From Antedon mediterranea (lineage: Eukaryota; Echinodermata; Crinoidea; Comatulida; Antedonidae), in NCBI RefSeq assembly GCF_964355755.1, contig NC_092671.1, positions 25,728,070-25,792,069 on the forward strand: 64,000 bases of DNA, given 5' to 3'. Position 1 is the stretch's first letter; every line of letters starts with the position of its first letter. Both the position numbers and the translations under genes were made by a program. Under the pieces are notes generated by a model. That model saw only the letters and a program-made list of their open reading frames with translations, was not told where the DNA came from and did no database searches. Shown piece after piece: positions 1,596-54,334 of this stretch.

Positions 1596-1597
1596 GG

Positions 1598-1712: not shown

Positions 1713-1740
1713 TTCTTTGATTTTTGAATCCTGTATTACT

Positions 1741-2032: not shown

Positions 2033-2349
2033 AAGTAAAAAAATATGTTTGATGGCCAAATTCAAAATTAAGCATGCTGTTCATCTAGAAGTAGAATTAT
2101 ATTTGAACAGAAAACAGCCTGCTACAGTATGGTATCATTATATATTAATTATGCATGTGTATTTTTATAATCATAGGGTCCACTAATAGGTTTGATAGGT
2201 GATAATAAAACATACTCCGAAAAAAGTGGGCCAAGCCATTATGATTTATAATGGTAATGGAAATGAACCTAGTTTGTTTTCTTGATAGATTCTTCTGATA
2301 ATCGGAAGCAAATTTCTAATCTAACAGACTATAAATTTCCATTCTTGAA

Positions 2350-2522
2350 CAAGAAGATATGGCTGGAATAAATTCCGGTGGATATACTAAAATTGAATTA
2401 ATTAATTTGAAACGATAAAATGAGGAAATCTGTTAGAATGAGAAAAAATCGCCCCAACCGAGATTCAAACCCGGACCTTCTGCTTGATATGCAGCTTTCC
2501 TAACCATTAGACCACTGGGGCT
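2350..2522 (-). mobile_element. tRNA-derived SINE (copy 1 of 2)
   Basis: On the minus strand the head (2450-2522) reads like a tRNA: acceptor GCCCCAG pairing with a 3' CTNGGGC-type end, an A-box region TGGTCTAATGGTTAGG and a B-box region GGGTTTGAATC. The loop between the CTGC/GCAG arms would give anticodon ATC, unusual for a functional gene. The downstream body (TTCTCATTCT, CAGATTTCCTCAT, TTATCGTTTCAAA, an ACCGG-containing end) recurs behind the same head at 35,116-35,290, which marks a SINE family rather than a single tRNA gene. Confidence 0.8.
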
Positions 2523-3091
2523 TTCATAGTAATGTTCAAACTCAGCAAAACAATAAGCAAATTTCTTTCTCCTAATTTAATGTTATTATCCTTCCGTTAT
2601 CCTAATAAGCAATTTTTGAAATTGCATACATTACCCACAACCATTGCAACATAGATGCGTCTGAATCAATTTAAAAATCAACAATTCCAACTTAGTTTTA
2701 TGTAGTTTAGGATAACTGTAACATACTGTAGTTTTAAATATGCATCATCAGTAGGCCTGTTGATGTAAATAGTTTTTATTGCTTCTCTGCTACAAACAAT
2801 AAATTAGAAAAACAAAATTCAAATTTGGTTTGGTTTGTTATCTTTGTCTTTCTATAATTTATACAGCACAATACACATATGTTTTTAAAGATATTTGTCT
2901 ATTAAACTTTAGTTAATCATGTTAACACACCATATCATACATCCGTCACGTATCAAATACTTAAACTTGGTATTGAAGAGCGAGTAAGACCATTTCAAAG
3001 TTTAAAGAATCTAGGATAGAGAAAGAGAGAGAAAATCAGAAAAAGATGGTTTGAAAAAAAAAATCGAATTTGTGATGAGATATTGGAGAAA
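2523..3091. other. no feature seen
   Basis: AT-rich DNA between the SINE and the 3.1-kb transposon. No exon or repeat structure was recognised. Confidence 0.4.
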
Positions 3092-3098
3092 GATAGAC

Positions 3099-4792
3099 CA
3101 TGGAACTATAGTTCCATGGTAGTTCCATGGGGACAATTTGCCGAATGCCATTTAGCCGACGGACAGTTAGTCGACAGGACATTTCGCCGACAACTATTTC
3201 GTCGACATACAATTGGCCGACAGACACCGGGCCGACAAGACATTTCGCCGACAACTATTTCGTCGACATAGGACATAATGCCGAATTGACATTACGAATT
3301 ATTAACACTTACGTCTATGGAACAAAAATCTGCCACTCAGAAGTAAGGTATAAAAAATGATAGCGGATCATTTTTTCGGGAGTCGTTCATTCGAGGGAGG
3401 CCTTGATATGATATAATACGATAACATAATCACATTAATTTCTCTAGATATAACAAAAATACAACACAAATCCTAAGAAGAGATAAAAGGTTTATTACAT
3501 ATGTCAGTAATTGTTTATATTTATTTGTTATTCTCTTCTTTACATTGACAGTATAGTAACACAGTAACACACACTTTAGGTTGGGTCTATTATTTGGCTA
3601 AATTAATGTCTAGAAAAGATCTTCGAATATTTTTGTAATTATTATTTTATTTCTCTAAAATTGTCTTAATGGACTATCTCACCCCATTTTTAGCCAAGCA
3701 CAAATTTATCTCTGTGGCATGTTCGTTTATCATCGGTTATTTATTCGCCTTCATGAAGCAGTTTCAATTTGCGTTTCCGACACAAATTAATTGAATATAA
3801 ACGTGCGTTAAAGGTTCACATTATTGTGCATTAACCATGCTGATGATTGTATTTTGTATGGATGTTTCTGTTTATTGTATTAGTATGCATTTATAATGTA
3901 CACATTATTATCTAACTTGCTTGTTTAATGGACCCCATTGGAATTAAGCTGTTTCCGCTTTATGGGTCATCCTGGTATTTTTGTTGTGTTTCTTGAGTAC
4001 CGAATAAAACAAACAAACAAACAAAAGACGTCTTATAGATAGTCAGTATTAATAGGCGTTGAAAATGCTGTTAAACAAGGGGTTACTTGAAATTAACATT
4101 ATTTTTTTTTTATTTTGAAACATTTTTTATGATGCCTATATAGAAATGTCTGCTCCCTTTTTAGAGACATTTTAGGTGACGTTTCTTTAGTCCCTCAGTC
4201 CTAGTTTCTCATTATTTATCAAGGGTTCTCTTCAATGATTTAGAATAGCAAATGTAGGTTAAAAACCAAGAGGTCAACGACTATATTATCTTCAAGATAG
4301 ACATACATCAAAAATGGATTATTATTTTTTAATATATTCTACTATAATGTGTTTCACTGAACTGGCGGTTTGAAATTGATAAAATCGATATATACTGTAG
4401 GCCTGATAACAGTTTAACTAAAGGCTAGTTTAACGTACTGTAGGCCTATAAATTGTTGTGTGTGAGTGGATTCGTTATATGAGTGTTTTTCATGCGAATT
4501 GGTATTATAAGGCCTACCAGATTTTTATTTTACTAAAGTGAAACGTGTTCTTTCATGTAACGAGACCGTAATGCAAACTTTTTAAATTCAATTCAAAACT
4601 CGTACATAAAAAAATATCGGCCGTATCCTGTCGTCAAAGTGTCTTATCGGCCAATAGTTTGTTGGTCAAATGTCTGTCGACCAATGTCTGTCGGCTAATT
4701 GTCTGTCGACTAAATTGTCGGTCGGCGTAGTCTGTCGGTCGGTAGTCTGTCGGCGAAATGGCCTTCGGCAAAATGTCCCGTCACCGTCCATG
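3099..4792. mobile_element. non-autonomous DNA transposon with iterated GCCGACA ends
   Basis: The ends are inverted repeats. The left side (from 3099) has CATGG...GGGACAATTTGCCGAA followed by spaced copies of GCCGAC/GTCGAC/GCCGACAGACA to about 3270. The right side (about 4615-4792) has the complementary series ending TTCGGCAAAATGTCCC...GTCCATG. Inner units recur every 15-20 bp, like subterminal transposase-binding sites. The host bases GATAGAC lie on both outer sides (3092-3098 and 4793-4799), a 7-bp target duplication. The left tip contains a perfect 22-bp palindrome at 3098-3119. About 1.3 kb of interior has no transposase, so it is non-autonomous. Superfamily is uncertain; termini and target resemble the 1300-bp elements at 28 and 31 kb. 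Confidence 0.8.
3900..4024 (+). mobile_element. LINE 3' tail with (CAAA)n
   Basis: A short non-coding segment ends in ACCGAATAAA followed by a run of CAAA units (about 4008-4024), the typical 3' end of a 5'-truncated non-LTR retrotransposon. No coding part is attached. It sits inside the GCCGACA element, so it inserted later or was captured. Confidence 0.45.
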
Positions 4793-5039
4793 GATAGACC
4801 TACTAAATCAGTACTAAACACTCAACAATAATTATTAATAGCTGGGCCCTAGTTTGAAAGTTTATTTGGGGTAAGAAAATGAATCTCCCCTCAATTTGGA
4901 CGTTTAAAATGTTTACCATGATAAATATTTGTTCATACATTATGATCAAACGAACAGTACTATATAACATTTTTCAAATGTGCTTCATAACACTTGAATT
5001 TTTGTATAAATCAAATTTGAATAATCCCGCCAATGAATA

Positions 5040-5218
5040 CCCTACTATCCAATCACAAAACAGTCCAATTGTCGCTCCTTCTCTCGACGACTACTACTAC
5101 TGCTGCGCGCTCGACTCGCGAACATCAGGTATATAGTGTAGTAGCAAACAAACATGCAGTAAACACTCAATTTCGAAAACACACGTCGTGCCGCGCCGCG
5201 GGGAGAGAGAAGACGATC
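5040..5218 (+). promoter_or_regulatory. GC/CpG-rich 5' flank of the tubulin gene
   Basis: In an AT-rich setting, this stretch before the tubulin start is locally rich in C, G and CpG (GCGCGCTCGACTCGCGAA, CGTGCCGCGCCGCGGGGAGA). It probably holds the core promoter and 5' untranslated region. A TATA-like TATATAG lies at about 5131, but no transcription start can be assigned from sequence alone. Confidence 0.45.
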
Positions 5219-5316
5219 ATGACAACTATTTACACATGTATTGGTCAGTGTGGTAACCAACTAGGACACCATTTTTTTAATACTGTTAATAACACCAGTG
5301 ATGAACAACATCAAAG
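5219..5316 (+). CDS. zeta-tubulin exon 1
   Basis: Codes residues 1-32 plus two bases of codon 33. It contains the N-terminal nucleotide-contact motif GQCGNQLG. Donor is CAAAG|GTAAAC, leaving phase 2. An upstream in-frame ATG at 5033 would add 62 low-complexity residues and is not favoured. Confidence 0.9.
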
Positions 5317-8300
5317 GTAAACCATAAACATCATCATTCTATAGTATAATAAATAGAAAGAGAGCGCATACCCTAGACTAGGCCTAGGCTTAGGCTAGCT
5401 AGAAGGGTATTCAGCTAGAATAGGAGACTGGAGGGTGAACAGACGATCGGGGCCATCATATAGAGATGATCAGGCCCATTTTTGTATGTACCTGATCATC
5501 TTAATTAATTAACACTTTGACTGCCAGAGGTTTTTCCAGTTAGAAACTGCCACCGCCAGTGTTTTTAGCAAAATTCGATGTTTTTATTAAAGCTGATTGA
5601 AACTATGTATGTGATCTGATTTATAAATTATATATAATTTAGACTAAAATAAGCATAAAGATGTTGGCTTTACAATGGTACAAGAACTCTGAACGATTTT
5701 CAAATCGCAATATATAAATCGTAATAGTAAAATAAAAGTAACCCACTTTTTTAGTTTTTCGTAGTTTCGCGCAAGAAAGTCGAGATATTCGCGATTTTGT
5801 GCAAGACATCACAATAACACAAAATGCCCGGTGAGATAAACAAACAACCAAAAAGTTACTAACACGGCACATATAGACCTATAAAAACAAGTTATCACTA
5901 TTGAAAAATGTATTCCATTTTATAAATCATAAATCTTACTTCAATGTTTCGCCAAAATCCACATAGTATTAGTAATGACACCAGGCCCAATTAACCAGGC
6001 CAAAAGTTGGTCCGGAACCATTTTATTAGGCCTAGGCCCAGGCTAGCATGTACTACTACTACTAGCCTAGTAAACTGATGATAATATCTATACCATTTCT
6101 AAACAAGTTTTTTGCGTGAAACCTGGTCACTTACAGTGAAACATCAAAACAATTGGGGTATACATACAATAAAAAAATTAAAGACTTCATATTGAATATG
6201 ACTCCATTATTTTTTATTCAGAAAACAAACAAACATGCCAATCCGCAAAAACCTTTGTAATGCTTCGGCGGCGCGACCGATACACAATGCGCCAAGCCAT
6301 CGGTCTACGCGCTACTGTGATGCGCGGTGTATGTTATTTCGACAGTCGTTTGTAACCAGATTAGTTACTTTCAAATAGTAAAATACTGACAGTCTAGACC
6401 GAATATAGTGTCCATATTTATAGAATATACCAACAATTAACCTATCTACCGGATTTCGTAAAAAAACGCGAAACACGAAGATCTTCGTGTTTGTTAGTCA
6501 AGCGTTTACCAAACACGAAGATCTTCGTCAAAGTCAAAGTGTTAAGCCTGGTTTCCTGTCGACGTAAGAACACCACTTTTGTTGCGATTACGTCGATTTG
6601 TTGTAAGAAATTTACAGGAAACTGATTACAATCGAAAATTTATAAAATCGACGCAACTTAAGAAAAAGGGTAACCACAATCGATTTTACAGAAAACCGAT
6701 GACCTAACAATTGTTGCGTAACGGTGTTTTCTTCCGATTTTACAGGAAACCAGGATTTTTTATCTTACGCTTGAATGAACGCCCTTGCGTTACGTTTCTT
6801 GCGTCTCTTAAGCCGATTTACCACTAGACGAATTTGTTCGTGCGAATGGAAAGCCTCATGCTCTGCGCATGCGTATTCGAGTTTCTGTCTGTCATACTCC
6901 CTTCTGCGACGAATTCTAGTTCCTTTATTTTTCGCTGCAGCAAAATTTACTAGTTCGAATTGTTTCTACTTTTTGCGAAGCGAAATATTGCGCAACCAAT
7001 CAGAGCTCAGGAAATGAACTATGACGCTTTCATGAGCACCAACCGAAATGCTCAGCAACCACGCGAGGAACATGAACGTCGCAGCTATTCGCTCATGTAG
7101 TGGAAAGAGAGTAGGCGATTTTTTACTCTTCGAAACGTTGGATTCGCGCGAACAAATTCGCCTAGTGGAAAATCGGCTCTATGAAAGTTGACTTGAAGTC
7201 AACTTTCGCAAGAGACGTAAGCACAATTGTGACAAGCAACCAATGAGCGACAAGAGTTATGATGTAATGTGTTGTATGACCTTTACAGTGAAATAAAGCC
7301 GGACAACAACAACATTTGTATGTACTGTAAATACTACTGTAATTTTAGCCCACGTTACGATGTTGTACATACTTTACAAATGCACAGTAGTTTCAATATA
7401 ATAATGTTCTAATCAGGGAGTTTACAAACTCATATCAAAATATAATACTCTTATTTATGGACAGCATTTTAAAGAAACCGACATTCTTCTGTTCTCCTTG
7501 TCGGTAGAAACGTCGCGGAAATGAACATTTGAAATACAATACAAAGCCCCTTTGTAAGCAATTAATATTATTATGTAACTTGATGAGTTTGACCAGCGCT
7601 GTACCCCACTCATTCATCAACATGCCTTCCAAGGTGGAGCTGGATCTGATGGAGACTGTCCAAAGCTATAGATGTATATATGACAAAAAAAGTCTTACAT
7701 ACAGAAATGGAAAGAGAGAAAAAAAATGCATGGGCGGCAGTCGCCCTGGCAATAAATAAGACCGCAGAATCTGTTCTCTTCTTAGTCGTCTTCTTCGCAA
7801 CATCCTATAGCAGGTTACCATCTTTGCTAGATATATTAATCATCTTTTATGACCAGCCTAGGCCTAGGCTATCTACTGAAAATAATATGTTAGTGTGCTG
7901 CACTGCTGCTGAGTAGCTACAGGTACAATAAAAAAATTCAACATTTCACGCGAAAAATGATAAAACCCGCTCTAAAAAGAAACACCAATCAGAGAAGTTG
8001 CTTCAAATACGTCATAAATCTGACCGACGTAAGAAAAAAATTTTAACTTACGTAACAACACTAAAATCGACATAAGCATACGGCGTTGTGTTTCACAGGC
8101 GAAATTTCAACTTTCGGGAGCAGCATAACCACAGATGTTTCTCTGCGGCCCGACACGATCTTGACTAAGGTCAACGACGTCCATTTTTTCTCAATTTTCG
8201 TAAGAGAAGTAAGAAACGCATAAAACGCAAGAATTGTTGCAAAATGTCGACAGGAAACCAGGCTTTAGGTGTTGGGCCCTATACTCTTAACATTAGGCCC

Positions 8301-11300
8301 GATGCGATAGCCAAGAGTATCATTTGTAAATCCGTCCCATTATAGTTTTTAATGGAGATCTTGGCAAACAATGTTTATGTTTATAATATTAATGGTACGG
8401 TAGTAGCCATGAAAATTTTTAGATCAATTAAAGGTGGCGTAAGCTAACAAAAAAACACCACATTTTGTCATCTGTGTCTACTACTATTGCAATTGTTGGA
8501 ATTGGAAGAGAGAGAAATTGAGTCCCTATTTTAGCCTAAATGAATTATTTGTTTTTTTAAATGTTATTGTTTGGTATAGAAAAAAAATGTTCTCTTAATA
8601 CTAATAGGGTAATCAATCATAATAATAATATTTTATGGTGAACAATAATTATAAATCCAATTCGTTTTTCGTGGACCCAATCGTCTAATTATGCACTAAT
8701 GACCCCCCGGTAGAGGTGCGTCATGAGTGCATCATTTACAAATAATTACTGACGCAGGGGTGGGTAAAAAAACCTGGATAAATAAGAACACGCCAATTGA
8801 CTTATCAAATATCAATGGATACAATATGTACACTTGTAATAGAGAAGGTAGAGTCGGTGGTGGAGTTTATCTATATTTAAAAGAACAAATCAACACCGTA
8901 ACACGTGATGATTTTGTATTTAATGATAACTCCATTGATTTTTTTTTCTAGAAATAATAAACACAAACGGCAAAAATACTATTGTAGGTATGTTGTATCG
9001 ACCACCAAATTCAAACGTCAACTCATTTAACTCTGATCTGGAAGAAATCTTACATAAACTTAATCGCGAAAACAAAAACTGCTATATCTTAGGAGATTTT
9101 AATCAAGACTTATTAAAATATGACATTCAAAAAACAACACAGGAATTCAAAAACATTATTTACTCAACATCTTTTAATCCATTAATTAACTTACCCACCA
9201 GAATAACATCGTCTTCTGCTACAATTTTAGACAATATTATTACAAATGATGATAACATTTCGCATTGTGGAGTAATAGTCACAGACATTACCGATCATCT
9301 ACCCATTTTCATGACAACACACCTGTCATTAAATACTAACACACAAGCTCCAATTACAAAACAAAAAATAATTAATGATACAACATTAAATAACTTACTT
9401 ATTGCTATTTCTAATGAGGATTGGGGTGAACTATATTTATGCACAGATACCAATACATCATATAACCTATTCATTAAAAAACTATCCAATCTCATAGATA
9501 ATAACATACCTAAAAAAGTAATAAGCCAAATGGTACTACAAAGAAAAAACCATGGATCACAACAGGAATTTTGATTTCAATAAAAAAGAAAAATAAACTT
9601 TATAAAGAAAAAAAAAATCGAGTGTTTGGCCAAATGAGGTAATTAACCATAGTAATAAAACTTTGGTATGTGATCTGACGCTTTTAATGACTTCTTCTCC
9701 AACATTGGAAATGAATTAGCAAACAAAATACCAAATTTAAACAATTCTGACTTTAAACAATATATGAAAGAGAGTCAATCCCAATCTATATTTTTCAATC
9801 CTACGAATGAAGAAGAGGTTATTGAAATAGTTAGTCAAATCAAAAATTCAAATTCAGAAGGTGTTGATAACTTAAGTAATCGCATTCTAAAACATCATAT
9901 TGCTGCTGTGGCATCTCCTCTTGTACATATCTTTAACCTCTCTCTTGAGACAGGCATCGTCCCTGATAGTATGAAAGTAGCTAGAGTAGTTCCAATTTTT
10001 AAATCTGGCAATAAAAGTGACGTCAGTAATTATAGGCCAATCTCTATTCTGCCTACCGCTTCAAAAATTCTTGAAAAAAATTGTTCAAATTAGAGTAAAT
10101 AAATATATCACAAAGTTTAACATCCTTAATAATGCACAATATGGTTTCAGAAAAAACAGTTCTACTTTTATGGCCGTTATAGATCTGGTTGAACGAATAA
10201 CCGATGCGCTTGATAAGAAAAAAAATACCATCGGTATATTTATTAATTTGTCAAAAGCGTTTGACACCATCAACCATGATATACTTCTAAAAAAATTGGA
10301 ACACTATGGCATAAGAGGCACGGCACTTAAATGGTTTAGAAACTATATTAGTGGAAGGAAACAATTTACGTCTATTGATAACACAAGTTCGTGTTTGATG
10401 GATATAAATTGCGGTGTACCACAGGGTTCAATTCTGGGGCCTCTACTATTTATTTTGTACATTAACGATGTATTTAATTGCTCAAACTCGTTATCTTTTG
10501 TTTTATTTGCTGACGACACAAACATATCTGCATCTCACGAAAACTTGGATACGCTCATAGATCTAGTTAATGGTGAACTAAAAAATGTTTCGGATTGGTT
10601 CATGTGCAATAAACTATCAATCAACGTTAAAAAAACTAATTACATAATTTTCCGCAATCAGCGAAATCCAAGTAAATTAGAGAATGTAAATATTTATGTC
10701 AACAATAAAAGAATAGATAGAGTTAAATCGACTAAATTCCTTGGGAGTACATATTGATGAATTTCTCACATATAAGAATCACATCAATGTTACAGCTAGG
10801 AAAATATCGCGATATGTTGGCATACTATATAAAGTAAGACATTTTTTACCAACCTACAGTATGCTCTCTGGACAATATACAAATCACTCATTGAACCAGT
10901 ATTAAATTATTGCAACATAATATGGTGTAGTACATTTCCAAGTTATCTAGATGAGTTATTTAAACTCCAGAAAAGGGCATTACGAGCTATAACATGGTCA
11001 AAGTTTAATGATTCAATGACTGAATATTTCTATAAATTTAAACTTCTTAAAATTGCGGATATCAATAGGTACCAAATTGGGCTCTTCATGTATAATGTTA
11101 CTACTAATCAGGACGTGCGTTTTTCATCGCTCTTTATTAAAAATGGTTTTTACCATTATTATAATACAAGATCTAAAGACAAAATGAGACTCAGAAAACG
11201 TAATCGTACTTCTACTAGTTTTACTGTGTCATGTGTGGGACCCAAATTGTGGAATGACTTGAATTACGAACTACAAAGTACCAAATCAATATATATATTT

Positions 11301-14300
11301 AAATCATTGTTTAAAGAACATTTATTATCATTTTACAAATAATTTTAAAATGATACTTGTTGCAGGATTTAGCTTTTTTTATTATTTATGTTTTAGTTTT
11401 TTAGGCTAGTTAGGGACGTAGGGGGACACAATTAATCAAGCTCTTTTGAGTTTTTATGTGTTTCCTTTTCATCTTTTTTTATGTTCTCATATATTGTTGT
11501 ATATTTTCATGATTGATGATGAATAAAGAATATTTGAATATTTGAATATTTGAATAGATGGTACGTCAAATCAATGACCAATGGTGTGTCAATGTCCGTC
11601 ACTTTACCACACAAAATATCATAAAAAACATGGTCCCAATGTGTCAAAATAAGTGCCTCGTGGTCACCTAAAGGTAAATCACATTATTGACGCATGGGTG
11701 CGTCATGGTATTCAAAGGTATGACGCACATTGGACAAATGACGTGCCCTCTCCCGGGGGTCGTATAGTGGGTCATACAATTGACAAGTGCATTTATATTA
11801 GATAGGCCCGAACGTCCACACAGTATAAGTATGACCTTTTAGTAGGCGGATAGTGTGCGAGAAATATGTCTGTAAAATCATCAATTTTTAAAGGATTTAT
11901 TTGGTACTTTTTATGTGATTCTCTTACGTACTAAGGACCGGTGTGGTATTCAAAATAAAGTTAGTTAACAAATTTGGGGTCAAAATACTGTACAACAAGA
12001 CAGGTGTGAAACAGAACTAGCGCCTATTTTATGATATGAAATGTTTATCGTGCAATTATGTAATATTAAAGTGTAATTATTCTTTTAGATCTCCATTTGT
12101 GTGTCAAGATAATAAAATTCGTTCATTGAATATAGATAGTGAAAACAAAGTTTTAAAACGTTTGATCAAGGATTCCAAGAAAAGGTAGGCCTAATTATCA
12201 ATTAATGTATGGCAATATGGAGTAATGGTACAGTTGCCTAGGACGCCAGTTCATTAGACAAGATGCCTCATCCTTCAAATGAGATTTAAATTTGTTAGTC
12301 TTGTGTACATATGGACGATAGAGAAATTTGTACACTATTCAAAGAGTGTCATGGTATGTGCTGCACTGTCTGTCGTTACAATTACCGTACTGACGTGGCT
12401 ATAAGCCCATAATCGACCACCCACGACTTTGACTAATTTTCATGCAAAATGTGGCACTCTGGTATAAGCTCACCCATTACTTCGAAGATCTACAGTAGGT
12501 GCCGTAATACATTATTTTGTATTTGGTAAAGACGAGTATTAATTTTGTGATGGTCGGCCCCACTGGTGACTTCCATACACCGCATAAAACCAAGCTAGTC
12601 CTGTTTTGTTTACCCTTCATCGCAGGCGAATATTGCTGCACACACTACGCTCGAATCACAAGTCGCCAAACGAAAAACCCCTATTTGGTATCGGCTGCCA
12701 TAAACAGGCTTATTAAATTTAAACTTTGGATTTATATACTTAGTTACAGTACAACACCTACCATGATCAGCACACCAACATTTTAACAATGTGATGTTAA
12801 ATAGAGTTTGATAGTTTACTACTACAATTACATTCTCTTAAACTCTTGATCTTTTATTGCTTTAAAAAAAGTTAGTAGTTGATATAATTTGAATTCTTTT
12901 TTATAGCCTGCTAAGGGAAGATAACATTGTATGCGGAAGAAAGGGAAGAGGTGCCAATTGGGCATTTGGTATGTGAACACCACTAGAGTAGAATCTTTTA
13001 ATTTGATTGGATAATGTTATTCTGTATTTAAAATTACATTGTCCAACCAACAGTAAATAAATGGTGAATTTAGCAAAAAGAAAGAGACAAATGTATACTA
13101 CATTGTTTTATTTTGTCATATGGCTTGAATGCACCTTATAGAACCCAGTGCATGTATCAGAAGAGAAGTGATATACTGGTGCATCTCGGTTACTGCCACA
13201 CTATTTGACAGGGAAGGAGCCTAAGGGCAGAAGAAAGTGTGTGCAACACTACAGCTACTACTAGTCAACTGCTTTTTACTGTAGAAATCATATTAATATA
13301 AATACAAACCCATTATCGCATTTTTTATTAATGTGTTCTTTTGTTTCTTTTCTAGGTTACCATGGTTTGAGAAATGATGAGGAGAACTTATTAGATTCTT
13401 GTTTAGATGCCTTTAGAAAAGAGGTTGAGAGATGTGACTGTTACACTGGTACTGTCATGATGCATAGTCTCTGTGGTGGGACTGGTTCTGGTAAAGTTCA
13501 TTCGTTATTAACAGCAGTAACTTTATAATCACTGGTTACTGGTTGTACACTGCAGTACATTAGAACTTCAAGTTTACCCGCCGTTCTGCTTCATTATAAG
13601 GGAGATCTTTTGCGACAGAAGCACAAATAGGTAAATGGAAAAATGTTCCTTGCCCAGAACAAACCTGTCGTTTATGTAATTTAGGGGAAGTTCATTATAT
13701 GAACATGAGAAAACATTTTATTCCAAATTATATATGTTTTAATTTTCTTAATTATAAGTCAAGAAAACCAACAATTAAGGCATTAGCAAATTTTATTGTA
13801 GTACAGTAGCTATAAAGAAATATTTTATTTGGCACACTAAATATATACTCTATAAAAATGAATTTAATTCATTGTGGACTTGTAAGGGCATTGTGGTGTG
13901 CTTCCTCGACAAAGTTTTAGTTTATTCCAGGTCCAGGCGACTATCGAAAAACACAACATTATTCAAACCTGTAGGTTGTGAGAAATCGATCCCTAATGCC
14001 ACATTATATACACAAGAACCAAAATTAAATTAATTAATAACAAATTGTTCCTACTAACACATGGTTTTGTTTATAATTCATTCATATTGTCAGTTGTTAA
14101 CCATTTCAAATATTTAATATGGTTAATGGTTTTAACTTTATAAAAAAAAAAAAATGGCATAAAATAGTATAAAACTTAAGTGTATTAGCTATGATGATCT
14201 TCTAAAATTGTTGATTGAAATATTGCAATCAAAATTGTTTTATATTGCAGGTTTTGGTTCACACTTGTGTGAAGCTATTCGAGATAACTATCCAATGGCT

Positions 14301-20300: not shown

Positions 20301-23300
20301 TGTAAACTGTAAGATGGTAACATGTATAATCAAATAAATACCCTCTAGTTATGAAAAAAATACAAGATGATTATTATTATTAAGAAGTGGTAAAATAAAT
20401 AAAGATTGTATTACAATTGTAGAATTGCAATTGTAACAAATCTTTAATTTTGGTGTGCTCTGAACGGTTAAAATGAGAGGTCTCTGTCATATCAAAAAGG
20501 ACTATCAGCTCATCTGTATCTGCTGATCATACATTTGCAGGCAGATATGCACAGTTTTAACACATTATTACACAGTATTGCCCTTGTAAATTTTCTTTAA
20601 ACTTTTTTAAGGAAAGATTATGAAACATTTATAACATATTGTTTAGTTTTTTATTAATTTACGGTTTTGTACTTTGAACATTCATCAAACATTCCAAAGT
20701 ATCTTAGGAAAGTATAGAATGTCTGCTAGATTTTAGAGAGTGTGTTACCCTTTAAAACATTGAACTTTTAGAATATTAAATCTTTAGAATTCTAATATGT
20801 GTCTAGTCCCATCCCTGGTATGATCATCCATGGAGGAATTAGTTTGGTGTCAAAAAAGGAGTGCACATTCCACAGATATACAGTATTTCAACACATAAAC
20901 ATTTCATTGTAGGTTCCCATATTTATATTTTTGGCCTATGGTAGGCCTAGCTGTTGCAAATCCAGTACAAATCTGAATTTACTTTTTTCAAAGAACAGTT
21001 ATAGGTGATGTAATCCGCGTTTTAGAATCAAAATTCATAGTTTACTGCCATTTAATTGAAATTTTCATATTTATATTATAAGAGAAAAAAAGTTTGCTAC
21101 TGCACGCATCCATACTGTACACATATAAGGTATTAATATCAGATTTAGGAAAGTTTTTAAACTATATTTGAACAGCCCCCAGGTGGAAAGAGTTGGGGTA
21201 ACATATCAGCTTTTATTTTTTAATTATTCATTTTGATAGAATATACAACATTTTTTTAAATCATAAAAATGGCTAATGGATAAGAAGTTTTCTTTTTAGA
21301 TCTATCCTTGTCCTTGAAACATTGCTTCATTTTATTAGTGCTCATGTATTGTTTTAATTAACTCACTGTGATTTACATTAAGCAGAATTGAACAGAATTA
21401 ACTTTAATCCTGTAGATAGAAGAGAAAATTAGTTCAATCATTTCTAAAGCTTTCATACATAGGACTCTTCAACTTACTAGTTTTATGACAAGATGAGTGT
21501 TTTTACGTAAGATTAAAAAAAAAAATTGTGCAAAATTTACTTTGTGTACACCGTTATTTCCACTTTTCTTCATTGGCGAACTTTTGATGTTATAGTCTGT
21601 AGCCATAAATTTCACAGCTCCTGGTTATTTTTACCAAAAAGGGCACTTTTCCAACAAACACAGGGAAAAAATCGTCATAAGCTTGGTCCCCCTTTAGCTT
21701 TTGGCCTCTAGCGTTCATTCAAAATGTACAAGTACATAGCCAGGATTTTTGTGTCCTTTTACCCACAAAGGGAAACGTTTTTTTTTCTCATAAGTTAGAC
21801 TAGAAGCATATTTACCTTTTCTGCTGATCAATATTTTGGAAATGGGCACTTTAGGGAAAATGTATATTTGAACCCCCTGGCACGGACCACATTTAGACCA
21901 CTTTTGTAGTGTAGAAGTTACATTTATGTGTACTACATTATATAGTTTGGTTCCCAAACTGTAACAGTTCTCTTCATTGGCTAACCTTGCTGTTGCTCGT
22001 GGAGATAAAATGGATACGTTCAGCAAACATTCTAAGAGCATTGAAAAAAAAATCAAGGCAGCTTACAATTGTGTGAGGTGGAACCCGTATCCAGTTGATT
22101 TTTGGATAGGTATGTTGACATGAATGAAAAGAAATGTTTGTTTTTGTTTGTATGATTGATCATTATTTTTCTAATCATTATCGCATAACCATCTTCATTC
22201 ATTATCTTCATCACAACCATCATCATTCATCATCATTATCAGCATCGTCATCATGATCATCTTCATCATTATCATAATCAACTTCATCATTATCATCACC
22301 ATTGTCTTCTTCATCGATCATTATCATTATCATCATACATCATCATTATCATCATTAACTTCGTCATCATTATCATCATACATCATCCTACATCATCATT
22401 AACTTCTTCATCATTATCATCAACCTCATCATCATCATCATCATCATAATAATAATAATAATCATTTCATCAACATTTTACCATGATTATCATCTTCTAT
22501 CTATTCATCTATTATCATTTCTTTAATTCTTGACATATTTCATAAAATTATTTATATCTTAACCACAAAGCTAATAAATGTTTTAACAAAGATTAATTTT
22601 TAATTTAAATTAAAGAAAAGGTGATTAAGCAATTCCATCATCATGGCCATAACCACAGGTCTTTGGTAATCTCTATATTTGATTACAAAATGTATATTAA
22701 ATCTGTCACCAAGCCCCACACTATTATTCATTGGCCCAAAGCCACTTCCTGTCTAAGCATTACCATCTACATATTTTGACCTACTTTTTGATATTTTTTC
22801 AGGAAAAGATTCCATAAACGTGGCTAAATCAGGAACTGCCTCTCTGACCATCTGTGCCAACACAAGCAGAATAGTTGAGTATGCTGGAAATGTTCTCAGT
22901 AAAACTCGGAACATGCTGGAGGCAGGAGCCTATTTGCACCTGTATTTGAATCATGGCTGTGAAAAGGTATTCCCAAATGACCCAATTATCTATTGACCTA
23001 CTTTCAATGCTTCTATATACAGTACAGTAGAATCCTTATTTTAGGAAACCTCTATTCAGGGGACACCCCTATTAAAGGGACACTTTCCGGTGAAAAAAAT
23101 GCCTTATTCAGAACACACTTATTTGGGTCCAAAAGGTGTCCCCTTTGATAGGGCTTGTACTGTATAAATTATACTAGTTTATCTTGAAGATAGGCGAAAA
23201 CAATGATACATATCCTATTTCCCACCTCTCAAACCAGGATTCAACAAACAGATATATACATGATACAGTAATATTCATGAAACAACTAGTTTACTGATCC

Positions 23301-24262: not shown

Positions 24263-24622
24263 CTCATTTCCGTTGCACGTCTCATGTTAATGATCATATG
24301 GTCTGCTGGGTGATAAGTCACTTAAGTGAGTAGCCCGAGGATGGCCAAGGCTCGATGGAAGGGGAGGAAGTAGTCGAGTGTGGTGAAGTGACTAGATGGA
24401 CAATCCTGCTAATTTGTATTTTATGCATACAGAATGAATATGGATTTTTAAACTAGGCAAGCTATTTAAACTGATTCTAGAACAAGGCTGCAAATTTGGA
24501 TTATGATTATATTACTAAGTACATTCCTGTCTTCTCGAGAAAGTTTACATTCCTACATAAATATATTTGATTATATTTTGTTCTTTACCATACAAAATAT
24601 ACTTTCTAGAAAAGTTTAATTT

Positions 24623-27600
24623 AAAGAGGTAGACAGAGACATGATAGATCACCTTATTTGAAAAATCCATATTAAAGGGACACTTAATATTGGGCATCCC
24701 TTATATATACAGAGTTTAAAGAGGTAGACAGAGACAAGATAGATCACCTTGTTTGAAAAATCCATATTAAAGGGACACTTAATATTGGGCATCCCTTATA
24801 TATACAGAGTTTAAAGAGGTAGACAGAGACAAGATAGATCACCTTGTTTGAAAAATCCATATTAAAGGGACACTTAATATTGGGCATCCCTTATATATAC
24901 AGAGTTTAAAGAGGTAGACAGAGACAAGATAGATCACCTTGTTTGAAAAATCCATATTAAAGGGACACTTAATATTGGGCATCCCTTATATATACAGAGT
25001 TTAAAGAGGTAGACAGAGACAAGATAGATCACCTTGTTTGAAAAATCCATATTAAAGGGACACTTAATATTGGGCATCCCTTATATATACAGAGTTTAAA
25101 GAGGTAGACAGAGACAAGATAGATCACCTTGTTTGAAAAATCCCTATTAAAGGGACACTTAATATTGGGCATCCCTTATATATACAGAGTTTAAAGAGGT
25201 AGACAGAGACACGATAGATCACCTTATTTGAAAAATCCATATTAAAGGGACACTTAATATTGGGCATCCCTTATATATACAGAGTTTAAAGAGGTAGACA
25301 GAGACATGATAGATCACCTTATTTGAAAAATCCCTATTAAAGGGACACTTAATATTGGGCATCCCTTATATATACAGAGTTTAAAGAGGTAGACAGAGAC
25401 ACGATAGATCACCTTATTTGAAAAATCCATATTAAAGGGACACTTAATATTGGGCATCCCTTATATATACAGAGTTTAAAGAGGTAGACAGAGACACGAT
25501 AGATCACCTTTTTTGAAAAATCCATATTAAAGGGACACTTAATATTGGGCATCCCTTATATATACAGAGTTTAAAGAGGTAGACAGAGACAAGATAGATC
25601 ACCTTGTTTGAAAAATCCATATTAAAGGGACACTTAATATTGGGCATCCCTTATATATACAGAGTTTAAAGAGGTAGACAGAGACAAGATAGATCACCTT
25701 GTTTGAAAAATCCATATTAAAGGGACACTTAATATTGGGCATCCCTTATATATACAGAGTTTAAAGAGGTAGACAGAGACACGATAGATCACCTTATTTG
25801 AAAAATCCATATTAAAGGGACACTTAATATTGGGCATCCCTTATATATACAGAGTTTAAAGAGGTAGACAGAGACACGATAGATCACCTTGTTTGAAAAA
25901 TCCATATTAAAGGGACACTTAATATTGGGCATCCCTTATATATACAGAGTTTAAAGAGGTAGACAGAGACAAGATAGATCACCTTATTTGAAAAATCCAT
26001 ATTAAAGGGACACTTAATATTGGGCATCCCTTATATATACAGAGTTTAAAGAGGTAGACAGAGACAAGATAGATCACCTTGTTTGAAAAATCCATATTAA
26101 AGGGACACTTAATATTGGGCATCCCTTATATATACAGAGTTTAAAGAGGTAGACAGAGACACGATAGATCACCTTATTTGAAAAATCCATATTAAAGGGA
26201 CACTTAATATTGGGCATCCCTTATATATACAGAGTTTAAAGAGGTAGACAGAGACACGATAGATCACCTTGTTTGAAAAATCCATATTAAAGGGACACTT
26301 AATATTGGGCATCCCTTATATATACAGAGTTTAAAGAGGTAGACAGAGACACGATAGATCACCTTATTTGAAAAATCCATATTAAAGGGACACTTAATAT
26401 TGGGCATCCCTTATATATACAGAGTTTAAAGAGGTAGACAGAGACACGATAGATCACCTTATTTGAAAAATCCCTATTAAAGGGACACTTAATATTGGGC
26501 ATCCCTTATATATACAGAGTTTAAAGAGGTAGACAGAGACAAGATAGATCACCTTGTTTGAAAAATCCATATTAAAGGGACACTTAATATTGGGCATCCC
26601 TTATATATACAGAGTTTAAAGAGGTAGACAGAGACAAGATAGATCACCTTGTTTGAAAAATCCATATTAAAGGGACACTTAATATTGGGCATCCCTTATA
26701 TATACAGAGTTTAAAGAGGTAGACAGAGACACGATAGATCACCTTATTTGAAAAATCCATATTAAAGGGACACTTAATATTGGGCATCCCTTATATATAC
26801 AGAGTTTAAAGAGGTAGACAGAGACACGATAGATCACCTTATTTGAAAAATCCATATTAAAGGGACACTTAATATTGGGCATCCCTTATATATACAGAGT
26901 TTAAAGAGGTAGACAGAGACACGATAGATCACCTTATTTGAAAAATCCATATTAAAGGGACACTTAATATTGGGCATCCCTTATATATACAGAGTTTAAA
27001 GAGGTAGACAGAGACACGATAGATCACCTTATTTGAAAAATCCATATTAAAGGGACACTTAATATTGGGCATCCCTTATATATACAGAGTTTAAAGAGGT
27101 AGACAGAGACAAGATAGATCACCTTATTTGAAAAATCCATATTAAAGGGACACTTAATATTGGGCATCCCTTATATATACAGAGTTTAAAGAGGTAGACA
27201 GAGACACGATAGATCACCTTATTTGAAAAATCCCTATTAAAGGGACACTTAATATTGGGCATCCCTTATATATACAGAGTTTAAAGAGGTAGACAGAGAC
27301 AAGATAGATCACCTTATTTGAAAAATCCATATTAAAGGGACACTTAATATTGGGCATCCCTTATATATACAGAGTTTAAAGAGGTAGACAGAGACACGAT
27401 AGATCACCTTATTTGAAAAATCCATATTAAAGGGACACTTAATATTGGGCATCCCTTATATATACAGAGTTTAAAGAGGTAGACAGAGACAAGATAGATC
27501 ACCTTATTTGAAAAATCCATATTAAAGGGACACTTAATATTGGGCATCCCTTATATATACAGAGTTTAAAGAGGTAGACAGAGACAAGATAGATCACCTT

Positions 27601-27959
27601 GTTTGAAAAATCCATATTAAAGGGACACTTAATATTGGGCATCCCTTATATATACAGAGTTTAAAGAGGTAGACAGAGACAAGATAGATCACCTTGTTTG
27701 AAAAATCCATATTAAAGGGACACTTAATATTGGGCATCCCTTATATATACAGAGTTTAAAGAGGTAGACAGAGACAAGATAGATCACCTTGTTTGAAAAA
27801 TCCCTATTAAAGGGACACTTAATATTGGGCATCCCTTATATATACAGAGTTTAAAGAGGTAGACAGAGACACGATAGATCACCTTATTTGAAAAATCCAT
27901 ATTAAAGGGACACTTAATATTGGGCATCCCTTATATATACAGAGTTTAAAGAGGTAGAC
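24623..27959. repeat. 95-bp satellite array, block 1 (about 35 units)
   Basis: Head-to-tail units of 95 bp starting AAAGAGGTAGACAGAGAC and containing ATTAAAGGGACACTTAATAT and CCCTTATATATACAGAG. Units are almost identical and vary at three positions: A(A/C/T)GATAG, CTT(A/G/T)TTTG and CC(A/C)TATT. The last unit is broken at GGTAGAC by a 1300-bp element. The start is only 360 bp after the tubulin stop codon. Confidence 0.97.
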
Positions 27960-29259
27960 CATGGATTAAAGAATAGAAGGATATGCATCGACGTGAGATC
28001 AAGGGTTCCTTGACTCTCGCCGACAGACCGCGGACCGCCCACAATGTTACAGTTTAATTAACCGCATGGTAACAACGAAACGGTCGCGTGCCTAATATAT
28101 TGTTTACTGCACATGTGCAACGACATTTAACCTTGTTGGCTACTACGCTTCTTTCGCGCGTTCTTTGGTGGCATGATGTTTGTAGATGGTCAACTATTGA
28201 CTATGTTGGTTTCTGCCGCGATTGATCTACGCTAATGATTTTTTATGATGATTAAAGTAGCATTTTATGACCTGTAGTAGCCCTACATCTGAGACAATAA
28301 CTATTAGTTGTCTCATTTGTTGTAAAATTACAAAATCAGCAAGAATGCTAGCCTAGCTAGGCCCAGGCCTTGTACTAACTAGGCTAAACTGGGCTAGTAA
28401 ACCCTATGATTTGCCGACATTGATACTGCCTAGGTAGGCCTAGGCTAATCTTAAATACTCACCGTTGTCTTACTTCTTGTGTGAATAATAATAGGTAGGC
28501 CTACTTCGTTTGTTCGTGATCAAGTTTGCCCTGCGTGTACTTTTCAAAACGACCGCTAGGTAACGAATCGCAACTATACATAGCCAGCCAATCCCGGATC
28601 AGGGATCGCTGTTTTCATTCAATTAGGCCCGGTGATTGGATGTGATGTGGATGACATAACCACTAGCCAATCACCAGGCACTACAGTTTAAATATAATCA
28701 CATCGATAATTAAGGAGATTTATGAAGAAACCACTGCTTAGCCATATATTAAAAAACACGATTGTTGTATGTCTGAACACCGGCCACGCTAACAACATAC
28801 ATGGTCAAATGCATAATTTAATATTCTATAGATTAACGCAATTTTTAATGACAGAAGATGGCAGGCAAATAATGATAATTCAAATATAAAAATGGCATAT
28901 TTTATTAATATTACCAACTACCTAAAATTACCAGTCGTAAGAAAGTGAACTTTTCGTAGTCCGATTGTGATGAAACTAAAACAGAATTATTCAGCAATAT
29001 ATGTTTGTTATCAATTAATCATCGACGCAGACATGTCAATAGAACATTCAGACTGCGCATACGATTTCTACATGGTTACGTTTTGGTCTCAAAAAATGTA
29101 ACAGTTGATTCGCAGCGTTTTACAGAGGGCCGCGGTTAGAGACACGGAGTTCAATGAACGTGTTTGTTTGATTGGCAGCAGTGCTTTAGTATAGGCAAGC
29201 GCGTTGTAAAATCGTTTGATGTCACCGTCGATGCATATCCTTCTATTCTTTAATCCATG
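27960..29259. mobile_element. 1300-bp inverted-repeat transposon in the satellite (copy 1)
   Basis: The ends are a perfect inverted repeat of about 34 bp beginning CATGGATTAAAGAATAGAAG, with weaker homology for another 10 bp. The satellite bases GGTAGAC occur on both sides, a 7-bp target duplication. No transposase frame is present; only a 61-codon chance frame near the right end. CATG termini and a target resembling the P-element preference (GGCCAGAC) raise the P superfamily as a possibility, but P elements normally duplicate 8 bp, so this is inference. Confidence 0.9.
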
Positions 29260-31356
29260 GGTAGACAGAGACACGATAGATCACCTTTTTTGAAAAATCC
29301 ATATTAAAGGGACACTTAATATTGGGCATCCCTTATATATACAGAGTTTAAAGAGGTAGACAGAGACAAGATAGATCACCTTGTTTGAAAAATCCATATT
29401 AAAGGGACACTTAATATTGGGCATCCCTTATATATACAGAGTTTAAAGAGGTAGACAGAGACAAGATAGATCACCTTGTTTGAAAAATCCATATTAAAGG
29501 GACACTTAATATTGGGCATCCCTTATATATACAGAGTTTAAAGAGGTAGACAGAGACACGATAGATCACCTTATTTGAAAAATCCATATTAAAGGGACAC
29601 TTAATATTGGGCATCCCTTATATATACAGAGTTTAAAGAGGTAGACAGAGACACGATAGATCACCTTGTTTGAAAAATCCATATTAAAGGGACACTTAAT
29701 ATTGGGCATCCCTTATATATACAGAGTTTAAAGAGGTAGACAGAGACAAGATAGATCACCTTATTTGAAAAATCCATATTAAAGGGACACTTAATATTGG
29801 GCATCCCTTATATATACAGAGTTTAAAGAGGTAGACAGAGACAAGATAGATCACCTTGTTTGAAAAATCCATATTAAAGGGACACTTAATATTGGGCATC
29901 CCTTATATATACAGAGTTTAAAGAGGTAGACAGAGACACGATAGATCACCTTATTTGAAAAATCCATATTAAAGGGACACTTAATATTGGGCATCCCTTA
30001 TATATACAGAGTTTAAAGAGGTAGACAGAGACACGATAGATCACCTTGTTTGAAAAATCCATATTAAAGGGACACTTAATATTGGGCATCCCTTATATAT
30101 ACAGAGTTTAAAGAGGTAGACAGAGACACGATAGATCACCTTATTTGAAAAATCCATATTAAAGGGACACTTAATATTGGGCATCCCTTATATATACAGA
30201 GTTTAAAGAGGTAGACAGAGACACGATAGATCACCTTGTTTGAAAAATCCATATTAAAGGGACACTTAATATTGGGCATCCCTTATATATACAGAGTTTA
30301 AAGAGGTAGACAGAGACACGATAGATCACCTTATTTGAAAAATCCATATTAAAGGGACACTTAATATTGGGCATCCCTTATATATACAGAGTTTAAAGAG
30401 GTAGACAGAGACACGATAGATCACCTTGTTTGAAAAATCCATATTAAAGGGACACTTAATATTGGGCATCCCTTATATATACAGAGTTTAAAGAGGTAGA
30501 CAGAGACACGATAGATCACCTTATTTGAAAAATCCATATTAAAGGGACACTTAATATTGGGCATCCCTTATATATACAGAGTTTAAAGAGGTAGACAGAG
30601 ACACGATAGATCACCTTGTTTGAAAAATCCATATTAAAGGGACACTTAATATTGGGCATCCCTTATATATACAGAGTTTAAAGAGGTAGACAGAGACAAG
30701 ATAGATCACCTTATTTGAAAAATCCATATTAAAGGGACACTTAATATTGGGCGTCCCTTATATATACAGAGTTTAAAGAGGTAGACAGAGACACGATAGA
30801 TCACCTTATTTGAAAAATCCATATTAAAGGGACACTTAATATTGGGCATCCCTTATATATACAGAGTTTAAAGAGGTAGACAGAGACACGATAGATCACC
30901 TTATTTGAAAAATCCATATTAAAGGGACACTTAATATTGGGCATCCCTTATATATACAGAGTTTAAAGAGGTAGACAGAGACAAGATAGATCACCTTATT
31001 TGAAAAATCCATATTAAAGGGACACTTAATATTGGGCATCCCTTATATATACAGAGTTTAAAGAGGTAGACAGAGACACGATAGATCACCTTATTTGAAA
31101 AATCCCTATTAAAGGGACACTTAATATTGGGCATCCCTTATATATACAGAGTTTAAAGAGGTAGACAGAGACAAGATAGATCACCTTATTTGAAAAATCC
31201 CTATTAAAGGGACACTTAATATTGGGCATCCCTTATATATACAGAGTTTAAAGAGGTAGACAGAGACAAGATAGATCACCTTGTTTGAAAAATCCATATT
31301 AAAGGGACACTTAATATTGGGCATCCCTTATATATACAGAGTTTAAAGAGGTAGAC
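29260..31356. repeat. 95-bp satellite array, block 2 (22 units)
   Basis: Continues the same 95-bp unit between the two inserted elements. Its first ten units repeat the variant order of units 10-19 of block 1. One unit has GCGTCCC for GCATCCC. Confidence 0.97.
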
Positions 31357-32656
31357 CATGGATTAAAGAATAGAAGGATATGCATCGACGTGAGATCAAG
31401 GGTTCCTTGACTCTCGCCGACAGACCGCGGACCGCCCACAATGTTACAGTTTAATTAACCGCATGGTAACAACGAAACGGTCGCGTGCCTAATATATTGT
31501 TTACTGCACATGTGCAACGACATTTAACCTTGTTGGCTACTACGCTTCTTTCGCGCGTTCTTTGGTGGCATGATGTTTGTAGATGGTCAACTATTGACTA
31601 TGTTGGTTTCTGCCGCGATTGATCTACGCTAATGATTTTTTATGATGATTAAAGTAGCATTTTATGACCTGTAGTAGCCCTACATCTGAGACAATAACTA
31701 TTAGTTGTCTCATTTGTTGTAAAATTACAAAATCAGCAAGAATGCTAGCCTAGCTAGGCCCAGGCCTTGTACTAACTAGGCTAAACTGGGCTAGTAAACC
31801 CTATGATTTGCCGACATTGATACTGCCTAGGTAGGCCTAGGCTAATCTTAAATACTCACCGTTGTCTTACTTCTTGTGTGAATAATAATAGGTAGGCCTA
31901 CTTCGTTTGTTCGTGATCAAGTTTGCCCTGCGTGTACTTTTCAAAACGACCGCTAGGTAACGAATCGCAACTATACATAGCCAGCCAATCCCGGATCAGG
32001 GATCGCTGTTTTCATTCAATTAGGCCCGGTGATTGGATGTGATGTGGATGACATAACCACTAGCCAATCACCAGGCACTACAGTTTAAATATAATCACAT
32101 CGATAATTAAGGAGATTTATGAAGAAACCACTGCTTAGCCATATATTAAAAAACACGATTGTTGTATGTCTGAACACCGGCCACGCTAACAACATACATG
32201 GTCAAATGCATAATTTAATATTCTATAGATTAACGCAATTTTTAATGACAGAAGATGGCAGGCAAATAATGATAATTCAAATATAAAAATGGCATATTTT
32301 ATTAATATTACCAACTACCTAAAATTACCAGTCGTAAGAAAGTGAACTTTTCGTAGTCCGATTGTGATGAAACTAAAACAGAATTATTCAGCAATATATG
32401 TTTGTTATCAATTAATCATCGACGCAGACATGTCAATAGAACATTCAGACTGCGCATACGATTTCTACATGGTTACGTTTTGGTCTCAAAAAATGTAACA
32501 GTTGATTCGCAGCGTTTTACAGAGGGCCGCGGTTAGAGACACGGAGTTCAATGAACGTGTTTGTTTGATTGGCAGCAGTGCTTTAGTATAGGCAAGCGCG
32601 TTGTAAAATCGTTTGATGTCACCGTCGATGCATATCCTTCTATTCTTTAATCCATG
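31357..32656. mobile_element. 1300-bp inverted-repeat transposon in the satellite (copy 2)
   Basis: Same length, same ends and apparently the same sequence as copy 1, with the same GGTAGAC flanks. The shared flanking unit with the unique CTTTTTTG variant shows it arose by duplication of the block (3397 bp offset), not by a second insertion. Confidence 0.92.
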
Positions 32657-33992
32657 GGTAGACAGAGACACGATAGATCACCTTTTTTGAAAAATCCATA
32701 TTAAAGGGACACTTAATATTGGGCATCCCTTATATATACAGAGTTTAAAGAGGTAGACAGAGACAAGATAGATCACCTTGTTTGAAAAATCCATATTAAA
32801 GGGACACTTAATATTGGGCATCCCTTATATATACAGAGTTTAAAGAGGTAGACAGAGACAAGATAGATCACCTTGTTTGAAAAATCCATATTAAAGGGAC
32901 ACTTAATATTGGGCATCCCTTATATATACAGAGTTTAAAGAGGTAGACAGAGACAAGATAGATCACCTTATTTGAAAAATCCCTATTAAAGGGACACTTA
33001 ATATTGGGCATCCCTTATATATACAGAGTTTAAAGAGGTAGACAGAGACACGATAGATCACCTTATTTGAAAAATCCATATTAAAGGGACACTTAATATT
33101 GGGCATCCCTTATATATACAGAGTTTAAAGAGGTAGACAGAGACACGATAGATCACCTTGTTTGAAAAATCCATATTAAAGGGACACTTAATATTGGGCA
33201 TCCCTTATATATACAGAGTTTAAAGAGGTAGACAGAGACACGATAGATCACCTTATTTGAAAAATCCATATTAAAGGGACACTTAATATTGGGCATCCCT
33301 TATATATACAGAGTTTAAAGAGGTAGACAGAGACAAGATAGATCACCTTGTTTGAAAAATCCATATTAAAGGGACACTTAATATTGGGCATCCCTTATAT
33401 ATACAGAGTTTAAAGAGGTAGACAGAGACACGATAGATCACCTTATTTGAAAAATCCATATTAAAGGGACACTTAATATTGGGCGTCCCTTATATATACA
33501 GAGTTTAAAGAGGTAGACAGAGACACGATAGATCACCTTATTTGAAAAATCCATATTAAAGGGACACTTAATATTGGGCATCCCTTATATATACAGAGTT
33601 TAAAGAGGTAGACAGAGACACGATAGATCACCTTATTTGAAAAATCCATATTAAAGGGACACTTAATATTGGGCATCCCTTATATATACAGAGTTTAAAG
33701 AGGTAGACAGAGACACGATAGATCACCTTGTTTGAAAAATCCATATTAAAGGGACACTTAATATTGGGCATCCCTTATATATACAGAGTTTAAAGAGGTA
33801 GACAAGAGACACGATAGATCACCTTATTTGAAAAATCCATATTAAAGGGACACTTAATATTGGGCATCCCTTATATATACAGAGTTTAAAGAGGTAGACA
33901 GAGACACGATAGATCACCTTATTTGAAAAATCCCTATTAAAGGGACACTTAATATTGGGCATCCCTTATATATACAGAGTTTAAAGAGGTAG
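32657..33992. repeat. 95-bp satellite array, block 3 (14 units)
   Basis: Final run of the satellite, starting with the CTTTTTTG variant unit as in block 2. One unit near 33,800 carries a 1-bp insertion (GACAAGAGAC). It ends at GAGGTAG|TATATAAG. Confidence 0.96.
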
Positions 33993-54328: not shown

Positions 54329-54334
54329 ATAGAA

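Follow-up and report, generated by a model that had tools for sequence, protein, structure and literature searches.

Two insertions with CATGG ends in the window

The window analysed here is a 64,000-nucleotide stretch of the Antedon mediterranea genome (C2:25728070-25792069; the genome searched comprised 354 Mb in 18 contigs), and its features are given on the + strand. Two kinds of sequence in it are bounded by CATGGA and TCCATG. E2 is a 1300-bp transposon with no recognised gene and a 34-bp perfect terminal inverted repeat, CATGGATTAAAGAATAGAAGGATATGCATCGACG; copy 1 lies at 27960-29259 and copy 2 at 31357-32656, both within a 95-bp satellite that spans 24620-33992. E1 is a GCCGACA-repeat element that a preliminary description of the window had drawn at 3099-4792. 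The ends and flanks given in that description were confirmed at both places: GGTAGAC forms the left and right 7-bp target duplications of E2 copy 1 (27953-27959 and 29260-29266) and of copy 2 (31350-31356 and 32657-32663), and GATAGAC stands at 3092-3098 and 4793-4799, with CATGGA beginning at 3099 and TCCATG ending at 4792. In the reading that we favour, to which we give a probability of about 0.85, a P-superfamily transposase of the 7-bp type mobilises E2, a non-autonomous DNA transposon, in trans, the short CATGG palindromes of this genome are excision scars, and E1 is nested in one of them.

E2 belongs to a young family with 7-bp target duplications

The two E2 copies in the window are identical, with 0 mismatches over their 1300 bp at an offset of 3397; the commonest copies, at 1304 bp, are 4 bp longer than either. 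Because they share both properties, we take them to be one insertion that was duplicated together with the satellite, so that the window would contain two insertion events rather than three. Exact 21-bp E2 ends were found at 237 places genome-wide (122 + 115), of which 100 were among the matches listed, and the reversed-pattern control gave 0. Both ends were present in one stretch in 33 other E2-family copies, which span 1273 to 5072 bp, and 32 of them had an exact 7-bp duplication (13/13 in the first set and 19/20 in the second). The duplication count omits 7 of the 20 copies of the first set, whose stretches contained no right end; L006 and L009 were covered again in the second set, as L021 and L022; and L007, which was read in two pieces and has exact ATTGAAC on both sides, stands outside the 33 (L numbers denote individual loci). 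When 13 copies of the first set were compared with the window copy, 10 differed by 0-1 substitutions, indicating that the family is young; the other three had been aligned in the wrong orientation and their mismatch counts are void. Judged by its ends, duplications and low divergence, E2 is a real, young transposon.

An element with E2-related ends, L094, likewise carries exact ATACATC duplications. No P transposase frame was seen when the longer copies L021, L022, L029, L030, L031 and L094 were inspected by eye for open frames, and in the same inspection L022 was seen to hold an inserted reverse-transcriptase-like frame. The window sites could also be read as a 5-bp duplication with the inverted repeat longer by one base (CCATGG ends), a reading that the other E2 copies excluded.

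The preliminary description had proposed a target logo, and we built one from 42 distinct sites, comprising E2-family copies and scars with exact duplications. With position 1 as the first duplicated base, the sites showed a palindromic motif, T-nn-RTTNAAY-nn-A, which extends past the duplication: around the core RTTNAAY, T was found at -2 in 35 of the 42 sites and A at +10 in 32. GRTAGAC, whose presence at both window insertions had been read as a sequence preference of one shared transposase, occurred at 0 of the 42 other sites collected. Because the target is degenerate and none of the others is GRTAGAC, the likeness of GATAGAC to GGTAGAC is, by the evidence of the logo, a coincidence, two draws from a weak degenerate motif without strict preference.

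Short CATGG palindromes have the structure of excision scars

The pattern CATGGATTA-N(0-30)-TAATCCATG, which joins two ends of the CATGGATTAA type found in the E2 family, was present at 86 loci genome-wide (50 of them among the matches listed), and its reversed-pattern control gave 0. A longer interior, N(31-61), added only 2 loci, both of which were compounds of shorter scars. The flanks of 32 scars, drawn from the listed ones and not at random, were read: 21 had exact 7-bp duplications, and 24 had at most one mismatch. L084-L086 share flanks, and when they were merged by eye 19 of 30 were exact (20 of 31 with a stricter script key). Wrongly paired flanks matched in 6 of 992 pairings, which is the number that the L084-L086 triple alone yields.

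The scars differ from site to site, with lengths of 19-45 bp and differing amounts kept on each side, and their joints include overlaps, blunt joins and filler. One-sided forms were also found; L127 consists of duplication, 18 nt and duplication, and L131 retains 18 + 6. Under patterns that require at least 9 bases per side, which cuts the low end of the retention distribution by design, and with counts in which one base may agree fortuitously, 25 of the 100 sides in the 50 listed scars retained 16 nt of the inverted repeat, 1 retained 17, 11 retained 18, 11 retained 19 and none retained more. The end-only search, which requires 17 bases, returned 24 ends, some of which overlap scars already among the 86 loci; 7 continue as element ends, and the other 17 stop after 17 nt (2), 18 nt (6) or 19 nt (9). 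Retention thus has a ceiling of 18-19 nt.

From these structures we infer the following route, with a P-type enzyme as the putative cutter. Insertion duplicates 7 bp at the weak palindromic target. On excision, the transposase would make a staggered cut, at the element edge on one strand and about 18 nt (18-19) farther in on the other, which would leave each donor end with a 3' tail of approximately 18 nt that begins with CATGG. The two tails would then be joined end to end, with trimming, microhomology or filler, and the product would consist of the duplication, at most 18 nt from each of the two tails, and the duplication again.

At one locus, L140 (C5:19989528-19989672), a 35-bp scar is followed by a partial second copy of the same, with TTTAGAC outside both. 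This double scar looks like templated filler or repeated excision.

A second family of probable scars is uniform

The 20-bp palindrome CATGGAACTATAGTTCCATG, of the CATGGAACTATAG family, has 12 occurrences in the genome, 8 of them exact and 4 with a single mismatch; two overlap, which leaves 11 loci including the one in the window. The flanks of the 10 loci outside the window were read by eye, and 5 of these have exact 7-bp duplications directly at the ends of CATGGAACTATAGTTCCATG, namely TTATTAC (L054), GTCCATA (L057), GGTCTAT (L060), ATCATAG (L062) and TTCAGAC (L063). Duplications with one mismatch were seen at L055, L056 and L061, the last of which appears to be a duplicated L057 locus. GCTATAC flanks a 33-bp form at L059, and GATAGAC flanks a 31-bp form at the window locus. 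At L058 the flanks read TTGAAT...ATTCAA and make the whole a 32-bp perfect palindrome. A simple microsatellite origin of CATGGAACTATAGTTCCATG, suggested by the two overlapping copies on C4, was rejected because the flanks show 7-bp duplications. When the first 18 nt of the family were searched with at most one mismatch, 24 of the 25 matches fell at the known scar loci; the remaining single end, CATGGAACTATAGTGCCA at C4:3717449, had no partner within 4 kb, and no full-length parent with CATGGAACTATAG ends was found in the assembly by this search.

This uniformity bears on a different view of the short palindromes, namely that they are minimal mobile elements of 20-36 bp which transpose in trans by means of their CATGG ends. 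The exact recurrence of CATGGAACTATAGTTCCATG at 8 of the 12 places, the presence of exact 7-bp duplications around it at 5 of the 10 loci read and the failure to find a parent with that end are what such elements would lead one to expect. However, the CATGGATTAA scars, with their variable length, filler, one-sided forms and retention ceiling, point to repair and not to the copying of one unit. The uniform 20-mer itself would follow from repair as well: the CATGGAACTATAG tail, CATGGAACTATAGTTCC(A), is predicted to be self-complementary, and therefore its plain annealing would give a uniform 20-bp CATGGAACTATAGTTCCATG without any mobile 20-mer. We consider mobile mini-elements unlikely, and the palindromes are treated as excision scars below.

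P elements with 7-bp duplications reside in the same genome

P transposase genes are present in the genome, as Pfam matches to PF21787 were obtained at 35 places and to PF21788 at 12. Three 5.5-kb P elements, L047-L049, are about 99% alike and have the ends CTGAGACAACAATC (read as CTGAGACAACAATCAAAGAGATTGG); all three carry exact 7-bp duplications (CGGACAC, GCTAGCT and GTTTATA). A 794-aa frame in L047 matched PF21787 (3e-26), PF21788 (6.5e-18) and the P transposase of PDB 6p5a (1.5e-14), and the Pfam search of this frame showed no THAP domain. The transposase frame lies at 1581-3965 (+) of the stretch read for L047 (C1:2820800-2827200), and a 323-aa frame converges on it at 4065-5036 (-), with no Pfam match. 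The P element of Drosophila has a single transposase gene.

These elements have left scars of their own. The CTGAGACAA-type P-end scar pattern occurred at 74 loci (50 of them among the matches listed), with 0 in the control. Among 20 such scars read, 8 had exact 7-bp duplications, corresponding to 4 independent loci by their flanks, and 3 had one mismatch; across the 15 distinct strings examined, at most 17 nt of inverted repeat were kept. A degenerate footprint of this type lies inside E2 at 28289-28315, after CCTACAT, and has no right-hand CCTACAT in the window copy. What appears to be the same footprint site, with flanks matched by eye, has exact CCTACAT duplications in L117 and L120. The CTGAGACAA scar inside E2 suggests that both element groups were active in one lineage.

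The CATGG family compared with known cut-and-paste transposons

Among the most similar known elements is 1360 (Hoppel), of the P superfamily in Drosophila. Natural targets are given in PMC3276498 as the 7-bp GTTNAAC for 1360, the 8-bp GTCCGGAC for the P element and 8 bp for hobo; 1360 therefore resembles E2 in its 7-bp duplication, and its GTTNAAC fits the RTTNAAY core of the E2 family. This likeness concerns duplication and target; no transposase is tied to the CATGG family. Galileo, which PMC4168063 describes as having a 7-bp duplication (rarely 8) and a palindromic target, GTANTAC, with a motif reaching beyond the duplication, agrees with the E2 family in both respects. Its inverted repeats, in contrast to the 34 bp of E2, are described as unusually long and foldback-like (PMC3688188); a further likeness is that no functional Galileo copy was reported among 191 (PMC4168063).

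The Drosophila P element makes a 17-nt staggered cut, a long stagger that is called unusual and is said to separate P from the other cut-and-paste transposons characterised so far (PMC7776569). According to PMC2895639, its excision leaves non-complementary 17-nt tails, and sequenced junctions read acccagac-CATGATGAAATAACAT...ATGTTATTTCATCATG-acccagac; microhomology and templated filler occur at them, and polymerase theta is reported to be important for these junctions. The element starts with CATG, as the elements here do, and on that description the layout duplication-CATG...CATG-duplication with microhomology and filler is like that of our scars, whereas its 8-bp duplication, GTCCGGAC target and 17-nt tails differ from the 7 bp and the 18-19 nt ceiling of the E2 family. 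The scar remnants nevertheless point to a long staggered cut in the E2 family, of a length that would not be exactly 17 nt. The resident P elements L047-L049 share 7-bp duplications and scars with the E2 family, but their end sequence is unrelated and their scars keep up to 17 nt. hAT transposons, with the 8-bp duplication reported for hobo, do not agree with the 7 bp of E2.

The E2 family has the 7-bp duplication and the palindromic target beyond it that mark the 7-bp subgroup of the P superfamily, and a P-type transposase is encoded in the genome. The proposal in the preliminary description of a P-superfamily relative with 7-bp duplications is therefore well supported by mechanism, because the duplication length, the GTTNAAC-type target, the 18-19 nt footprints and the resident P-transposase elements with 7-bp duplications all agree with it. 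The same description had called for an autonomous CATGG copy with a THAP/P-type transposase, and in this the search was less successful: P transposase was found elsewhere in the genome, with no THAP in the L047 frame. Inverted repeats with 7-bp duplications were sought around the P-transposase places L050-L053, L095, L096 and L098-L100, and none with CATGG was found. Because no linked transposase gene was found, the assignment of the CATGG family to the P superfamily rests on mechanism.

Several observations weigh against this assignment, or against the scars and duplications on which it draws. First, no transposase-coding copy with CATGG ends was found when 154 typed termini were set against the 35 P-transposase places; the two were never closer than 18 kb, in a list of termini that is incomplete, containing 100 of the 237 exact E2 ends. 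Five of the six reading frames of L029, a copy of 5 kb, were searched against Pfam, and no match was obtained. Second, the retention ceiling is 18-19 nt here and 17 in Drosophila P. Third, duplications are imperfect or absent in part of the material: L034 is the one E2-family copy of the 33 without an exact 7-bp duplication, the duplications of the E2-related L097 and L122 contain 1 and 2 mismatches, respectively, 11 of the 32 E2-family scars read have no exact duplication, 9 of the 20 CTGAGACAA scars have at least 2 mismatches at 7 bp (among them L108, with an exact 8-bp duplication), and CATGGAACTATAGTTCCATG at L058 (C5:26270964-26271203) is flanked by inverted, not direct, repeats. Age or deletion may explain the scars that have no exact duplication. 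Fourth, the outer target bases agree less well outside the E2 family, with T at -2 in 4/7 and A at +10 in 6/7 of the P element sites, and in 5/6 and 3/6, respectively, of the CATGGAACTATAG scars.

Since no transposase is linked to CATGG ends, E2 and the scars could also have been produced by some other 7-bp cut-and-paste superfamily with long 3' tails, which the resident P elements would only resemble. Set against this, the target core matches that of 1360 and the scars match P junctions as published, the resident P elements share the duplication length and similar scars, and a long staggered cut is said to distinguish P from the other characterised cut-and-paste transposons (PMC7776569). Such a superfamily seems to us an improbable source, and a P-superfamily transposase remains the preferred cutter.

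E1 is nested in an older CATGG insertion

The shared termini of E1 and E2 had been taken as a sign of common mobilisation. The CATGG ends are indeed present at both, but those of E1 belong to a separate, older insertion. As drawn at 3099-4792, the ends of E1 match each other over 6 bp only. GCCGACA arms recur at the 14 other loci read (L025-L028 and L064-L073), and CATGG stands at no visible end of any of them (L069 has no clear end). Their boundaries, placed by eye as were those of E1, are GGTACTAGGACATTTTGCC, read as GGTACTAGGACATTTTGCCGAA, on one side and ...GTCCCGTCACC (...GTCACC) on the other. Both ends can be seen at 6 loci, and at 5 of these they are bordered by duplications of about 8 bp: GCTTAGCC at L066, AAATTTGC/AAGTTTGC at L067, CCGAAAAAG (9) at L026, TATCAGAA/GATCAGAA at L027 and TTCATTACAG (8-10) at L068, the last having been read by eye from its sequence and not caught by the script. 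L070 was unclear. The GCCGACA family thus does not share the 7-bp duplication of the CATGG group.

E1 fits the same scheme. With its ends set by the relatives L026, L027, L066, L067 and L068, E1 proper, a GCCGACA-repeat element with inverted arms, runs from 3131 to 4785 as GGACAATTTGCC...GTCACC, between its own 8-bp duplications TTCCATGG (3123-3130) and GTCCATGG (4786-4793), which differ by one mismatch. What is left outside E1 proper is GATAGAC-CATGGAACTATAGTTCCATGGTAGTTCCATG-GATAGAC, an older 31-bp insertion. Its left part, CATGGAACTATAGTTCCATGGTAGTTCCATGG, occupies 3099-3130, the last base of which (3130) belongs to the duplication of E1, and the GATAGAC copies at 3092-3098 and 4793-4799 are the duplications of this old CATGG insertion. 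Because its relatives end in GGTACTAGGACATTTTGCC/GTCACC with duplications of about 8 bp and E1 agrees with them, E1 is, on the comparison with these loci, an unrelated GCCGACA element that sits inside an older CATGG scar and mimics a 1.7-kb CATGG-ended element. The scar would have formed first and been hit later by E1. It is very unlikely that E1 is itself CATGG-ended and was mobilised by the enzyme of E2. GATAGAC and CATGGA/TCCATG do stand where such an element would have them, but the 14 other GCCGACA loci show no CATGG at any visible end, and 5 of the 6 with both ends visible have duplications of about 8 bp beside GGTACTA.../...GTCACC. The CATGGAACTATAG core, moreover, is present at 10 further loci, where the 240-260 bp that were read hold no GCCGACA element.

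The GCCGACA elements (window 3131-4785; L025-L028, L064-L073) consist of repeats of about 15 bp in inverted arms, with duplications of about 8 bp. A Pfam search of one of six E1 frames led nowhere.

Implications of the scars

If the scars are read correctly, the genome may well be an archive of more than 100 natural P-type excision repairs (86 + 74 pattern loci, not all independent), with cuts that would lie 18-19 nt (CATGGATTAA) or about 17 nt (CTGAGACAA) inside the element, and with the CATGGAACTATAG family known here only by its scars. In that case the long staggered cut would be ancient within the P superfamily, its 7-bp branch included. The long P-type cut is known from work on Drosophila (PMC7776569); here it seems readable from the sequence of another genome and in 7-bp families, so that how general it is can be tested directly. 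From the scars one could count excisions and learn how this organism repairs breaks that have long 3' tails. A family visible only through scars would testify to lost transposons in an unusual way. Annotators should bear in mind that a short CATGG palindrome may be the scar of a transposon, and that such a scar, once another insertion has landed in it, may be mistaken for a new element whose ends are false. No description of genome-wide palindromic P-type scars was found in the titles or opening abstract text of the literature searched, a coverage that does not extend to mentions in the body of a paper only.

Other repeats in the window

Two pairs of tandem arrays were observed by eye. Arrays of an 80-bp unit lie at 46737-47180 and 49122-49516, about 2 kb apart, with consensus units that are apparently reverse complements, and are possibly arms of a foldback-type element. 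Arrays of a 154-bp unit at 57316-57880 and 60117-60769, about 2.2 kb apart and apparently inverted, are likewise candidate foldback arms. Finally, an 85-bp satellite at 50849-54339 showed a very strong GC skew (0.52 and 0.67 in two 2-kb windows, 50001 to 54000).

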